From NCBI GenBank assembly GCA_014874365.1, contig JACWAH010000020.1, positions 1 through 64,000 on the forward strand: a DNA stretch of 64,000 nt. Reading direction: 5' to 3'. The notes under the pieces are model-generated. The model was given only the letters and a program-made list of their open reading frames with translations. It ran no database searches and had not been told where the DNA came from. Position numbers and translations under genes: made by a program. This document shows, piece after piece, positions 57,817 through 62,599 of the stretch. This DNA comes from Thermoplasmatales archaeon (GTDB taxonomy: Archaea > Thermoplasmatota > Thermoplasmata > Thermoplasmatales > Thermoplasmataceae). The number at the start of each line of letters is the position of its first letter. The stretch's first letter is position 1.

Positions 57817-58254
57817 ATGGCACGAACCAAAGCCGATGCAACAAAGCAGGTCATAGACATTCTGGCCGAGACCATGAGAGCTTATTCTAAATTGCTAGAT
57901 GAGACTAACCTTATCAATGCAAAGCAATTCCTCGAATTCTTCATGGACATTGACAGGAAGTGTATTTCGGCAATGGAAAAGAATAAAATAATCGGCGTTC
58001 CCATAGATCTCCACACCGACATACACACGTCAGATCACCTGCTTCCACACAGATCTGTCGACTCAACCAGCCTGGCAAGCATTCTGAGATTCATAACCAA
58101 GGAACAGCGGCATTTGCAGGAGAGAGTTGAAAAAATAATTGGGGGGAGCATGATGGAAGTTGGAACAGTGGAGGACTCTGTCCTCAGGACATTGCAGAGG
58201 GCCAGCATGAAGGGAGAGATAATTTACAGCGAAATTATACAGAAGCAATATTGA
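57817..58254 (+). CDS. Helical protein of unknown function, coupled to dtdA
   Basis: A 145-residue protein predicted to be almost all alpha-helix, with helices near residues 8-27, 33-53, 84-112 and 118-142 and a His-rich loop at 66-78 (DLHTDIHTSDHLLPHR). I recognise no family; a four-helix bundle is likely. The His/Asp-rich loop could bind metal. A TATA-like CTTTTATT at 57785-57792 is centred 28 bases before the ATG. The stop overlaps dtdA as TTGA, so the two proteins are probably made together. Confidence 0.65.
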   Translation: MARTKADATKQVIDILAETMRAYSKLLDETNLINAKQFLEFFMDIDRKCISAMEKNKIIGVPIDLHTDIHTSDHLLPHRSVDSTSLASILRFITKEQRHLQERVEKIIGGSMMEVGTVEDSVLRTLQRASMKGEIIYSEIIQKQY

Positions 58255-59045
58255 TTATACTGACAGTCGCCTCAAAGCAGGATCCAGCCAGTATGAAAAT
58301 GGCTGAATTTTTCGTAGAAGAATACAAACCCCACAGGATCAACGACACGACATACCAGTCTGGTAAACTGATCCTGAAGATAATCGAGGAAACACATCTT
58401 TACGCGAACACTGCAAAGCTGGCCAGCAGCGTTGCCACAAATGATGAAATCGAAGGTATCGTATTCCTGTCCAAGCACAGTTCCAAAGCAAGAATTAAGT
58501 CAATAACTGTTCACCCGGTAGGCAACATCTCTGAAGCTATCCTTGGGGGGCTTGAAGGCGTATTAGGAATGTCGTATCCAGACATTATGACTGAGACCCT
58601 GAGAAACATGAAGAAAAATAACGTCAATGATGAGATTGAGGTTACTTTTGAAGCGACTCATCACGGGCCATTTTCTGAAGTCCCCACGTTTTACCTGGAA
58701 ATTGGTACAACAGAAGAAGAATGGACAAGCCCGCAGTTGTTGCGGTGTGTTCTTAAATCATTTTACGAAGCAGAACATAATTCAATGCCGAACTACGTTG
58801 GAATCGGAGGAGGGCATTACGCACCAAAGTTTTCGCAGTACGTCTTTTCCCACAGGATAAACGTTGGTCATATATTGCCAAAATACCAGAGGGATCACAT
58901 AGTAAAGGATTCAATGTTACAGGCAGTCCAGAAAACTCCAAACTGCAGAGGATTCCTCATGGACTTTAAAGGATGCAATTCAGATATGAGAAAAGTCGCC
59001 AGGGAGGTCTCAGGTGAGCTTGGGATCGAGATGATCGAAATTTAA
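58251..59045 (+). CDS. dtdA: D-aminoacyl-tRNA deacylase (archaeal DtdA/GEK1 type)
   Basis: A 264-residue zinc-dependent enzyme that hydrolyses D-amino acids mischarged on tRNA. The signature EVTFEATHHGPFSEVPTFYLEIGT near residue 129 and GIGGGHYAPKFS near 182 contain the conserved His residues. FLSKHSSKARIKSITVHPVGN near 72 is another family block. The start is a TTG, overlapping the previous stop. The D-amino-acid theme of the genes that follow makes this location notable, although dtdA itself is a housekeeping gene in archaea. Confidence 0.93.
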   Translation: MIILTVASKQDPASMKMAEFFVEEYKPHRINDTTYQSGKLILKIIEETHLYANTAKLASSVATNDEIEGIVFLSKHSSKARIKSITVHPVGNISEAILGGLEGVLGMSYPDIMTETLRNMKKNNVNDEIEVTFEATHHGPFSEVPTFYLEIGTTEEEWTSPQLLRCVLKSFYEAEHNSMPNYVGIGGGHYAPKFSQYVFSHRINVGHILPKYQRDHIVKDSMLQAVQKTPNCRGFLMDFKGCNSDMRKVAREVSGELGIEMIEI

Positions 59046-59150: not shown

Positions 59151-59160
59151 ATTTATATAT
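59151..59160 (+). promoter_or_regulatory. TATA box of the PLP-DUF1611-MurL-like cluster
   Basis: ATTTATATAT is a strong TATA match about 55 bases before the ATG at 59211, predicting a leader of some 28 bases that contains the ribosome-binding sequence GAGAGGA. The region from 59060 is strongly A/T-rich. Confidence 0.55.
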
Positions 59161-59210
59161 ATAGAAAAACTGACATCTTAACAGGTTTCTGCTGAGAGGA
59201 ACAAAAGAGA

Positions 59211-60179
59211 ATGGAGATAGTTAGTGAGGAGGAAGAACCTCCAGATACGACTCCTTTTTTTAGAGCCAAGAATATTGAAAAATCCCTGAAATTGAAAAAA
59301 TTATACATTAAGTTTGAAGGCGCAAGCGTTACTGGAACCCAGAAAGACAGGATTTCCAGATTGCATGCGAGGAGAGCAAGATCCCTTGGCTACGACACGC
59401 TTTCCCTGGCATCATGTGGAAATTACGGTGCATCAGTGTCCCATTACGCTTCAACATACGGTTTGAACAGCGTTGTCGCCGTGCCTAACAGCTACTCTGG
59501 CGAGAGAAATTCCGAAATATTGGGGTATGGCGGGAAACTTCTCCTTGAGGATGGAAAATATGAGAGTTTAGTTGAAAGGATGCGCGACATGGGGAATGAC
59601 AACTGCTGGTACGACTGTAACCCCGGCTCCACAAATTCGTTTATAGATATTCTGGGATACGAATCAATCGCGTTTGAGATCATTTCGCAACTTGGCCATG
59701 CGCCAAATTTTGTTGCAGTTCCTGTAGGCAACGGCACGACCATGTCGGGTATTTATTCAGGATTCAAGAAAGCGTTCCGGCTGGGAATGGCGGACAGGAT
59801 ACCGAGATTGATTGCATCGTCCACAAACGGTGGAAATGCAATTGTTCATTCGTGGAAGGTAAAAAGCAAGAGGATAATTGATCTTGAACCGAACATATTG
59901 AAGGAAACAACGGCGAATGAACCTCTTGTTTCGTACCATTCCATAGACGGGCAGAAGGCTCTCAACGCAATCTATGAAAGCAGAGGGTTCGCTGAATATG
60001 TAACAGATGAAGAGATGTTACGAACTTCATCGTTCATTGAGAGGCTGGAGAAGATACAGGCACTTCCCGCATCATCATCTGCGCTATCCGTTGCAGTAAG
60101 GATCATGAGAAGATTTGTAGATTACCCGGAATGTGTGGTTGTACTTACGGGTCGGGGAAAAACTTGGACGACGCAGTAA
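59211..60179 (+). CDS. Fold-type II PLP enzyme, threonine synthase-like
   Basis: A 322-residue PLP enzyme. EGASVTGTQKDRIS near residue 37 holds the Schiff-base Lys, ASCGNYGASVSHYAS near 66 is the substrate-carboxylate loop, and PVGNGTTMSGIYSGF near 167 is the phosphate-binding loop. The N-terminus and general pattern resemble threonine synthases, but it is shorter than the usual 350-400 residues, and the family also includes racemases, dehydratases and diaminopropionate synthases. It begins a cluster with DUF1611 and MurL-like genes, whose reading frames overlap or nearly touch. The reaction cannot be named; context suggests an amino acid or D-amino-acid metabolite. Confidence 0.8.
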   Translation: MEIVSEEEEPPDTTPFFRAKNIEKSLKLKKLYIKFEGASVTGTQKDRISRLHARRARSLGYDTLSLASCGNYGASVSHYASTYGLNSVVAVPNSYSGERNSEILGYGGKLLLEDGKYESLVERMRDMGNDNCWYDCNPGSTNSFIDILGYESIAFEIISQLGHAPNFVAVPVGNGTTMSGIYSGFKKAFRLGMADRIPRLIASSTNGGNAIVHSWKVKSKRIIDLEPNILKETTANEPLVSYHSIDGQKALNAIYESRGFAEYVTDEEMLRTSSFIERLEKIQALPASSSALSVAVRIMRRFVDYPECVVVLTGRGKTWTTQ

Positions 60180-61198
60180 TACTGAGTGAAAAGGTCTTCG
60201 GCACAACATACGGAAAGACCGCAAATGGACTGATAAGATATGGAACCAGGTTCCGGCCGGTTGCAGTCATCGATTCCAAGTTGGCTGGAAAGGATGCCGG
60301 GGAGGTCCTGGAAGGGAAGAAGAAGGGAATACCCATTGTGAGCACTCTTTCCGAAGCGCTACCGCTTAACCCAAAAGTCATGGTTGTTGGAATCGCCAGT
60401 GATGGGGGTTACCTGCCTGTGGAGTACAGGAGTTTCATTAAGCAGGCACTCGAAAACGGCCTGGATATCGTATGCGGACTCCATGAGTTTCTTTCTGAGG
60501 ATCCCGAGTTTTCCATACTTGCCAGAGAGCACTCCTGCAGGATAACAGACGTCAGAAAGATATACAGGGACATGAAAATCCCATATTCTGGAAAGATAAA
60601 CGAAGTTAAGTCGTTCAAACTGGCTGTTCTCGGTACGGACAGTGCAGTTGGAAAGAGAACGACCTCCGTTTTCCTTAACAGGGCAATGCAAGCCGCGGGA
60701 AGAACAAGCGTTATGATAGGAACTGGCCAAACCGCATGGATGCAGGGCTTTGAATACACCGTCGTAACGGATGCAATGATCAACGACTTTATTTCCGGAA
60801 ATCTTGAGGACACAGTGTACAGGGCCTGGCAGGATCTTCACCCGGAATACATGTTCTTGGAGGGACAGGGATCAGTTCTTCACCCCGCATATCCAGGGAG
60901 TTATGAAATAATAGCTGCCTGCAGGCCAGATGCCATAATATTACAGCATTCCCCGTCCAGGATATACTATGACGGTTTTCCTGGATTCAAGATAGAGTCT
61001 GTGGAAAAATACGTAAAGATATTGCAATTGATATCCGGCAAGCCCGTTATTGCCGTTGCTCAAAACAACGAAAACTTGAGTCCTGAGCGTTACGCTGAGG
61101 AAACAAGCATGATCAGCAGGAAACTTGGCATACCTGTTTTTGATCCCCTGTCCGATCTGACCGAAATCACGAAATATATTGAGTCAGTATCCCGGTGA
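60164..61198 (+). CDS. DUF1611/DgcN-like P-loop protein (possible D-glutamate N-acetyltransferase)
   Basis: A 344-residue protein. The N-terminal Rossmann-like domain has KTANGLIRYGTRFRPVAVID and AGKDAGEVLEG near residues 12-45. The C-terminal P-loop domain has GTDSAVGKRTTS near 158 and FLEGQGSVLHPAYPG near 228. This is the DUF1611 family; a bacterial member, DgcN, acetylates D-glutamate, and others sit beside dipeptide epimerases. I take the TTG at 60164 as start because relatives begin near DDAVILSEKVFG; a longer frame from an ATG at 60131 would overlap the PLP gene by 49 bases. The next gene starts three bases after its stop. Confidence 0.75.
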   Translation: MDDAVILSEKVFGTTYGKTANGLIRYGTRFRPVAVIDSKLAGKDAGEVLEGKKKGIPIVSTLSEALPLNPKVMVVGIASDGGYLPVEYRSFIKQALENGLDIVCGLHEFLSEDPEFSILAREHSCRITDVRKIYRDMKIPYSGKINEVKSFKLAVLGTDSAVGKRTTSVFLNRAMQAAGRTSVMIGTGQTAWMQGFEYTVVTDAMINDFISGNLEDTVYRAWQDLHPEYMFLEGQGSVLHPAYPGSYEIIAACRPDAIILQHSPSRIYYDGFPGFKIESVEKYVKILQLISGKPVIAVAQNNENLSPERYAEETSMISRKLGIPVFDPLSDLTEITKYIESVSR

Positions 61199-61201
61199 TA
61201 G

Positions 61202-62599
61202 ATGCTTGGCTATACATCGAGAATAACTTGTTTCAAAAACGCTAAAGTCCGATTAAAGGAAGTCTCAGAGGGAAGGATAACCTCCGCAATAGACCTTGAC
61301 GGGGAGGTATTCGACCTGATATTCTCCTATAGTGAAAAAATTCCAAGGGTTGACGATAACCTTGCCGGGCTTATCTCTTTGATGCCGCTGATAAACTTCT
61401 CTCTTTTCATCAACGAGATACAACTTGATTTCCCAGCCGAAAAAGTAGACCATGAATTCCTATCAAGGATGATTGAAATAAACAATACTGAGGTATTCGT
61501 CAACAAGATATGCAGGCGAAGATTTGAATTTTACAAAAAGGAGTATCTGCCAAAGGACGACGAGATTACGATTGATAATGCAAGAGGAAACACCAGATTG
61601 AGTTACACTGATAGAGAAGAATACAATAGAAAATACGAATCGAATAGAACTGGAATACTGCTTTCAGGCGGCAAGGAGAGTCTGACTACTTTTGGAATGC
61701 TGAACGAGACGGGGTTCAAGCCGGATGCCTTATTTTACAACGAATCCGGAGCCCACTGGTTTCCCGCTATCCCAAGTTACAGGAAAATGAAGGAAAATAA
61801 TGTAGCATTCAAGGTCTGGGCTAATACGGACAGGTTCTACAGATGGGTATTCAAGAGAATGAAAGTGCTGGATCAAAAGGTCGTATCCAAAGTGGCAGAT
61901 ACGTACCCAGTGCAGCTTTTTGTGTTCCCGGTATACCTGCTGGCGCTTCTTCCCCTCACAATGGCGAGAGAAATAGGAACAGTTTTCATGGGAAACGAGT
62001 TCGACGATCCAAGGGAAATGACCCCTTTCAGGGGAATAAAGCACTATTACGGGATATATGACCAGACAGAAGATTTCGAGAAGGAATTCAACTCGTACCT
62101 TCTCAGTAAAGGTATCGGGATAAGGCTGATGTCAGGGGTCTACCCTGTGAGCGCAACAAAAGTGGAGGAAATACTGGTGAAGCGATATCATGACCTGTTT
62201 GTACTGCAAAGATCCTGTCACAGTTCCAGGATTATCAAAGGGCAGGTAATACCATGCGGGAAATGCTCGAAATGCATTGGCGTGATCTCCCTTATCCTGG
62301 CTGCAGGAGGAGACCCCGGTGAAATCAACTATTCAAAGGAAGCAATTGAAGCGGCAAAAGAATCTCTCGGGACAGACAGGATCAGGTTGGACAGAGATGA
62401 GGTTGCATATTTGCATGCAATAATTAACGGCAAGCTGCCAGGTCCAGAGAAACAGATCCAGGGTATACATGTTCTGCCCGGAGAAAGACTTCCGTTTCAA
62501 AGGCTCGATCCGGATTTCAGGGAGAAAATTCAATCGATAGTGGAAAAATATACAACTGGAATTTACCGCCTGGATAATGGTAAGTGGATAATGTCCTAG
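61202..62599 (+). CDS. PP-loop ATPase related to MurL (L-glutamyl epimerase)
   Basis: A 465-residue protein. The central PP-loop ILLSGGKESLTTFGML near residue 153 is the ATP pyrophosphatase motif of QueC, asparagine synthetase and MurL. FMGNEFDDPREMTP near 262 and YPVSATKVEEILVKRYHDLF near 317 follow, then SCHSSRIIKGQVIPCGKCSKCIG near 338-360, a cysteine cluster like the one in MurL. Bacterial MurL epimerises the terminal L-Glu of UDP-MurNAc-L-Ala-L-Glu through an adenylate. Here, without murein, the substrate must differ. The order of domains fits MurL better than QueC. GGTGAT precedes the ATG. Family relation is from motif recall. Confidence 0.6.
   Translation: MLGYTSRITCFKNAKVRLKEVSEGRITSAIDLDGEVFDLIFSYSEKIPRVDDNLAGLISLMPLINFSLFINEIQLDFPAEKVDHEFLSRMIEINNTEVFVNKICRRRFEFYKKEYLPKDDEITIDNARGNTRLSYTDREEYNRKYESNRTGILLSGGKESLTTFGMLNETGFKPDALFYNESGAHWFPAIPSYRKMKENNVAFKVWANTDRFYRWVFKRMKVLDQKVVSKVADTYPVQLFVFPVYLLALLPLTMAREIGTVFMGNEFDDPREMTPFRGIKHYYGIYDQTEDFEKEFNSYLLSKGIGIRLMSGVYPVSATKVEEILVKRYHDLFVLQRSCHSSRIIKGQVIPCGKCSKCIGVISLILAAGGDPGEINYSKEAIEAAKESLGTDRIRLDRDEVAYLHAIINGKLPGPEKQIQGIHVLPGERLPFQRLDPDFREKIQSIVEKYTTGIYRLDNGKWIMS

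Follow-up and report, generated by a model that had tools for sequence, protein, structure and literature searches.

What do three tightly packed genes, two of them with bacterial relatives that handle D-glutamate, do in an acid-loving archaeal lineage that has neither cell wall nor murein? The question is raised by positions 59211-62599 of the window (the whole 64,000-nucleotide stretch of Thermoplasmatales DNA analysed here), which encode a pyridoxal phosphate (PLP) enzyme, a DUF1611 protein and a PP-loop protein, hereafter PPL, and in which an earlier note had read a MurL-like epimerase paired with a DgcN-like D-glutamate acetyltransferase. The operon is real, conserved and uncharacterised, and the labels MurL, DgcN and D-glutamate exceed the evidence. 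What we propose by analogy, tentatively and with somewhat less than even confidence, is that PPL might be an epimerase acting on a DUF1611-modified amino acid through a MurL-like adenylating mechanism, so that the two proteins would form an archaeal DUF1611-plus-epimerase module.

Conservation of the gene cluster

The three genes lie on the forward strand as closely packed as the earlier note had stated: the open reading frame (ORF) of the PLP enzyme (59211-60179) overlaps that of the DUF1611 protein (60131-61198), and 3 bp separate the latter from the PPL gene (61202-62599), in a host genome of Thermoplasmatales type (G000; 1.48 Mb in 26 contigs). The true start of the DUF1611 gene is likely the TTG at 60164 rather than the ATG at 60131, because homologues begin at the former and residues 1-9, counted from the ATG, are disordered in the structural model.

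A survey of 194 Thermoplasmatota genomes yielded 38 full-length PPL genes in 37 of them. DUF1611 is linked to 36 of these 38 genes, always upstream, directly in 35 cases and with one gene between in genome G013, while the full trio is found at 35 of the 38 (33 strictly, G013 and G043 with one inserted gene) and in each of the 18 genomes sampled from the window's family. In a wider survey, restricted to the best 80 of 304 loci and drawn from 84,980 species, the order is mostly identical, including three Bathyarchaeota as well as Ferroplasma, Acidiplasma, Thermoplasma and Cuniculiplasma. Outside the window's family and in Bathyarchaeota, dtdA, valS and tsr3 are lost from the neighbourhood and the trio persists; slow rearrangement alone therefore does not account for the linkage, which is far above chance and agrees with the association that the earlier note had assumed. 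The least fixed member is the PLP gene, which G113, G197 and G200 carry at another place in the genome and which was not found in G194, G195, G196 and G199, and the core of the cassette is accordingly the DUF1611-PPL pair. The bathyarchaeal members are nested among the Thermoplasmatota DUF1611s (support 100/100), which suggests that the cassette may have been transferred between phyla.

Among the family loci, the clearest breaks occur at L104 and L105, where the operon is split, with about 4.2 kb and 0.5 kb between DUF1611 and PPL. At L143 (contig 122 of G027), a second PPL copy overlaps, in place of DUF1611, a 474-residue ORF with a C-terminal NUDIX domain.

The gene position beside DUF1611

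The evidence that bears most directly on the role of PPL comes from the genes that accompany DUF1611 where PPL is absent. Across the phylum, 21 PPL-free DUF1611 loci were informative, 13 with a homologue of enolase-superfamily epimerases within one gene and two with a PLP racemase of the alanine/ornithine racemase (Orr) type; for those enolase-superfamily neighbours that were tested, the best NCBIfam matches are to L-Ala-D/L-Glu epimerase and DgcA, all under the cut-offs of those models. The picture recurs in 18 inspected plasmid records from bacteria and haloarchaea, where the gene following DUF1611 is a dipeptide epimerase or DgcA in eight and an alanine/ornithine racemase in five (the records were chosen from search matches and some are related, so that this tally is illustrative), and where D-aminoacylase or D-amino-acid transaminase genes sometimes flank the DUF1611-racemase pair. 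Both arrangements can coexist, as in G013, where DUF1611 is accompanied by the enolase type at one locus and by PPL at another. In the window, no DgcA stands beside DUF1611 and PPL occupies that place; no DgcA-like gene exceeds the cut-off anywhere in the genome, whose sole enolase-superfamily gene over cut-off is a gluconate/galactonate dehydratase (578 bits), as is the best enolase-superfamily gene of G148 and G168.

PPL thus stands where an epimerase of either of two unrelated folds, the enolase superfamily and the PLP racemases, otherwise stands. It is because PPL lies in the usual racemase slot of DUF1611 that we propose for it the role of an epimerase. The general setting put forward in the earlier note, epimer chemistry of amino acids, remains plausible in view of the racemases of two other folds that adjoin DUF1611 genes.

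The DUF1611 protein

The assignment to DUF1611 made earlier stands, both domains being well over their cut-offs (DUF1611_N, PF17396, 101.7 bits, E 3e-29, cut-off 22.6; DUF1611_C, PF07755, 183.1 bits, E 5e-54, cut-off 25); the protein is built of Rossmann and P-loop domains. The structural model, with a predicted local distance difference test (pLDDT) of 92.5, matches the DUF1611 structures 2obn, at a template modelling (TM) score of 0.85, and 2g0t, together with DgcN 7xrj (TM 0.69); more distant Foldseek matches are cyclic diphosphoglycerate synthetase, dethiobiotin synthetase and Mur ligases. The Walker A loop GTDSAVGKRTT (60632-60664, forward strand) contains G168, T169, D170, G174 and K175, which are invariant in all three partner classes, DgcN included, and the core motifs GTD..xGK, TGQ and EGQ are common to DUF1611 and DgcN.

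The specific substrate named in the earlier note is not supported by this comparison. Against the NCBIfam equivalog model of DgcN, the window protein scores 144 bits, far below the cut-off of 480, and other PPL-linked DUF1611s score 159-173 bits; all PPL-linked members form a single clade (support 100/99) that lies near the Orr-linked DUF1611s and apart from DgcN. Since the DgcN cut-off is failed and the clade is a separate one, D-glutamate is no safe substrate. The chemistry of DgcN itself is taken here from NCBIfam names and from PMC12363236.

Fold and motifs of PPL

PPL is a protein of 465 residues for which profile and sequence searches of Pfam, NCBIfam and the PDB returned nothing of value; DUF6395, considered as a family for it, was rejected with bits under the cut-off. 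In an alignment of 54 sequences, S155, G157 and K158 of the PP-loop SGGKES (61664-61681, forward strand) are invariant, with G156, E159 and S160 in more than 90%; the motifs ESGxHW, DR, QRSCH and CGxCxKC are likewise invariant or almost so. The AlphaFold2 model (mean pLDDT 94.2) finds as its best PDB matches in Foldseek QatC 9y02 (E 1e-5 over 462 columns) and QueC 3bl5 (E 1.5e-3), with probability 1.00, and Cap9 9nto, at identities of 12-15% and TM-scores of 0.28-0.65. As modelled, then, PPL is a PP-loop ATP-pyrophosphatase of the QueC/QatC structural superfamily, at superfamily level only, with a PP-loop Rossmann core and a C...CxxCxxC site. The latter corresponds to the cluster C339-H340...C352-G-K-C355-S-K-C358 (62216-62275, forward strand), whose four cysteines are invariant in the 54 sequences and match in kind the four zinc cysteines of QatC (PMC13279940). 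It is thus predicted to be a zinc site of QueC/QatC type, and the MurL-like character ascribed to this cluster earlier was not borne out.

PPL gives no Pfam match to PF06508 (QueC), the best among 25 relatives being E 0.054, and the canonical QueC of the host genome lies elsewhere (C16:28033, 221 bits), which rules out PPL as canonical QueC. Of the outcomes that the earlier note had set as refuting its reading, clear placement in QueC and lack of conserved linkage in relatives thus both fail. Neither is PPL a QatC defence protein: the genes that recur beside it are those of the PLP enzyme and DUF1611, dtdA, tsr3 or a GNAT, with QatA, QatB and QatD not among them, and PADLOC returned QueC only, weakly (E 0.001-0.014). 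Searches toward MurL sequence by tblastn gave no match in plasmids, weak partial matches only in phages and none in viral contigs, and in a structure library of viral proteins QueC-like matches alone were of note.

The PLP enzyme

The first gene encodes a fold-type II, threonine-synthase-like enzyme of the PRK06381 group (PALP, PF00291, E 4e-47) that passes the threonine synthase model NF004996 with 392 bits (cut-off 266) and carries the PLP-lysine motif, with K45 at 59343-59345 on the forward strand. Its family loops are TGTQKDR, CGNYGAS and NGTT. The equivalent of the SxGN[AT]xAS loop of canonical ThrC is here CGNYGAS, whereas the other ThrC of the genome, a canonical one, has SGNAGAS; on both counts the enzyme was rejected as canonical ThrC and, judged by its sequence, is an offshoot of threonine synthase. 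Genes of this subfamily were absent beside PPL-free DUF1611 in the Thermoplasmatota survey (G013 being explained by its inserted gene). The enzyme probably either provides the amino acid on which the pair acts or uses it up.

Proposed reaction and alternatives

In the scheme that we favour, the DUF1611 protein would acylate an amino acid at its amino group, or block that group otherwise, whereupon PPL would bind ATP and adenylate the carboxylate, rendering the alpha-proton acidic, and would then invert the alpha-carbon and release AMP. The epimerisation would be driven by ATP and run one way, like that of MurL, and the PLP enzyme encoded alongside would probably make or consume the amino acid. 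The model is MurL, an ATP-dependent enzyme that forms AMP, works in one direction on an N-acylated terminal L-Glu and has been proposed to proceed through an acyl-adenylate (PMC8788868; PMC5808125). The genes, their linkage, the modelled folds, the conserved ATP-binding and zinc motifs and the partner pattern are observed; what we infer is that PPL epimerises, that its substrate is N-blocked, in which direction the reaction runs and what the PLP enzyme contributes.

Several observations weigh against this proposal. The epimerase role of PPL is drawn from gene position, and that position is not without exceptions: six of the PPL-free DUF1611 loci in the phylum have no racemase, G126 has PPL without DUF1611, and in a few f21 genomes PPL too is adjoined by a homologue of enolase-superfamily epimerases, so that mutual exclusion is incomplete. 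Moreover, the products of QueC, QatC and Cap9 are nitriles, amides or protein conjugates rather than epimers, and Orr works on free amino acids, so that the DUF1611 reaction may vary between contexts.

The main alternative, favoured by the modelled fold of PPL itself, is that PPL acts as its structural relatives do, adenylating the carboxylate of the DUF1611 or PLP product and coupling that product, its chirality unchanged, with ammonia, an amine or the N-terminus of a protein. This is possible, if on the whole unlikely. The nearly full-length match to QatC, the matches to QueC and Cap9 and the QueC-type zinc cysteines speak for it, and the RimI-like GNAT gene that overlaps or abuts the PPL stop in several lineages would suit N-terminal or amide chemistry; on the other hand, the fold identity of 12-15% is low, the cluster showed neither a GATase nor a carrier-like substrate protein, and the racemases beside DUF1611 elsewhere would be left unexplained.

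We consider it improbable that the cluster scavenges D-glutamate or other D-amino acids in the manner of DgcN-DgcA, with DUF1611 N-acetylating a D-amino acid of bacterial walls and PPL turning the N-acetyl-D into the N-acetyl-L form. The core shared with DgcN is what such a pathway would lead one to expect, as are the dipeptide-epimerase homologue and the weakly matching M14 carboxypeptidase that adjoin the cluster in f21, and dtdA is a neighbour at 48 of the 80 loci. Nevertheless, the DUF1611 protein falls far below the DgcN cut-off and outside its clade, the adjacency of dtdA is matched by that of the unrelated tsr3, the PLP gene would have no role, and presence in every sampled family genome, at a stable locus amid housekeeping genes, is unlike an accessory catabolic operon.

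Also improbable is that the pair is an archaeal counterpart of MurD2-MurL, in which DUF1611 would ligate an L-amino acid to a peptide or a carrier metabolite, whereupon PPL would flip the residue to D with ATP, giving a D-amino-acid conjugate (cofactor, glycan or solute) in these wall-less archaea; the hints in this direction are weak, namely an E of 9e-5 for DUF1611 against Mur ligase profiles and Foldseek listings of MurD and pseudomurein peptide ligases at low TM. Finally, that the PLP enzyme is simply a threonine synthase and the three genes unrelated, held together through slow rearrangement, is largely refuted and very improbable: the NCBIfam name of the protein and the high synteny within the family would fit, yet a canonical ThrC (428 bits, cut-off 301) lies elsewhere in the genome, the substrate loop is unlike its own, and the trio stays intact where dtdA, valS and tsr3 are unlinked, namely in Bathyarchaeota and further families.

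Promoter and neighbouring genes

The putative operon promoter is a TATA box, TTTATATATATA, read directly at 59152-59163 on the forward strand; TTTAAATA/TTTATATA-like elements stand at the equivalent alignment position in five relatives, which upholds the earlier assignment. The cluster does follow dtdA (58251-59045; PF04414, E 3e-59), as had been remarked, but this is weak as evidence: we set dtdA aside as a functional indication since tsr3 and valS, unrelated housekeeping genes, are equally syntenic. Upstream of dtdA, a 145-residue ORF (57817-58254) has no family match and is recognised in the closest relatives (L071, L072) only.

On the other side of the cassette, several Thermoplasmatota families as well as Bathyarchaeota have a RimI-like GNAT gene that lies tail-to-tail with PPL and whose 3' end overlaps the stop codon of PPL or directly adjoins it (L131, L133, L139, L024, L026-L028, L030, L031, L146, L183-L185); at those loci the GNAT gene looks like a fourth member of the cassette. 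No GNAT was counted in the window's operon, the nearest in G000 being a RimI-like gene beyond the window, 5.7 kb past PPL (C14:68282-68731), by riboflavin-type biosynthesis genes. In a few f21 genomes PPL also adjoins a GNAT gene and an M14 carboxypeptidase that matches weakly; such an M14 gene, together with a homologue of enolase-superfamily epimerases, stands beside GNAT and PPL at L184 (G126) and L146. At L020, L122, L123, L124 and L127, PPL is followed by a convergent gene for an EamA-family transporter, possibly an exporter of the product.

Comparison with known systems

So far, the QueC/QatC fold has been associated with tRNA modification and phage defence. Were PPL an epimerase, it would add a third fold, unrelated to the other two, to the epimerases at one conserved gene position and would link MurL-type ATP-driven epimerisation to this fold; a chemistry would be given to a protein without a family name, the labels "threonine synthase" and "DgcN-like" would be refined, and a pathway of D-amino acids, or of another epimer, would be widely kept in murein-free archaea.

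With QueC, QatC and Cap9, PPL has in common the fold, the PP-loop SGGxxS, the CxxCxxC zinc site and, with QatC, an N-terminal extension; it differs in having no Pfam QueC match, in ESGGHW and other family motifs, in its neighbours and in the presence of a canonical QueC elsewhere. MurL is likened to PPL by the proposed chemistry (conversion of ATP to AMP, carboxylate adenylation and one-way epimerisation of an N-acylated residue) and has likewise a Rossmann/P-loop enzyme as neighbour; unlike in the MurL systems, the hosts are without murein and DUF1611 is no Mur ligase. The PLP enzyme shares with threonine synthase the fold and the PLP-lysine motif and departs from it in the CGNYGAS and NGTT loops and in coexisting with a separate canonical ThrC. 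The DgcN-DgcA pathway of D-glutamate, an N-acetyltransferase followed by an N-acetyl-D-Glu racemase, resembles the cluster in the DUF1611 fold and core motifs and in the gene at the epimerase position after DUF1611; here, in contrast, DUF1611 belongs to another clade and PPL and the PLP enzyme are found with no DgcA. The DUF1611-Orr pairs of Vibrio and Rhodobacterales plasmids contain the nearest DUF1611 relatives found among the plasmid records (36-39% identity), with a racemase directly downstream; that racemase depends on PLP and has another fold, whereas the partner here is a PP-loop enzyme.

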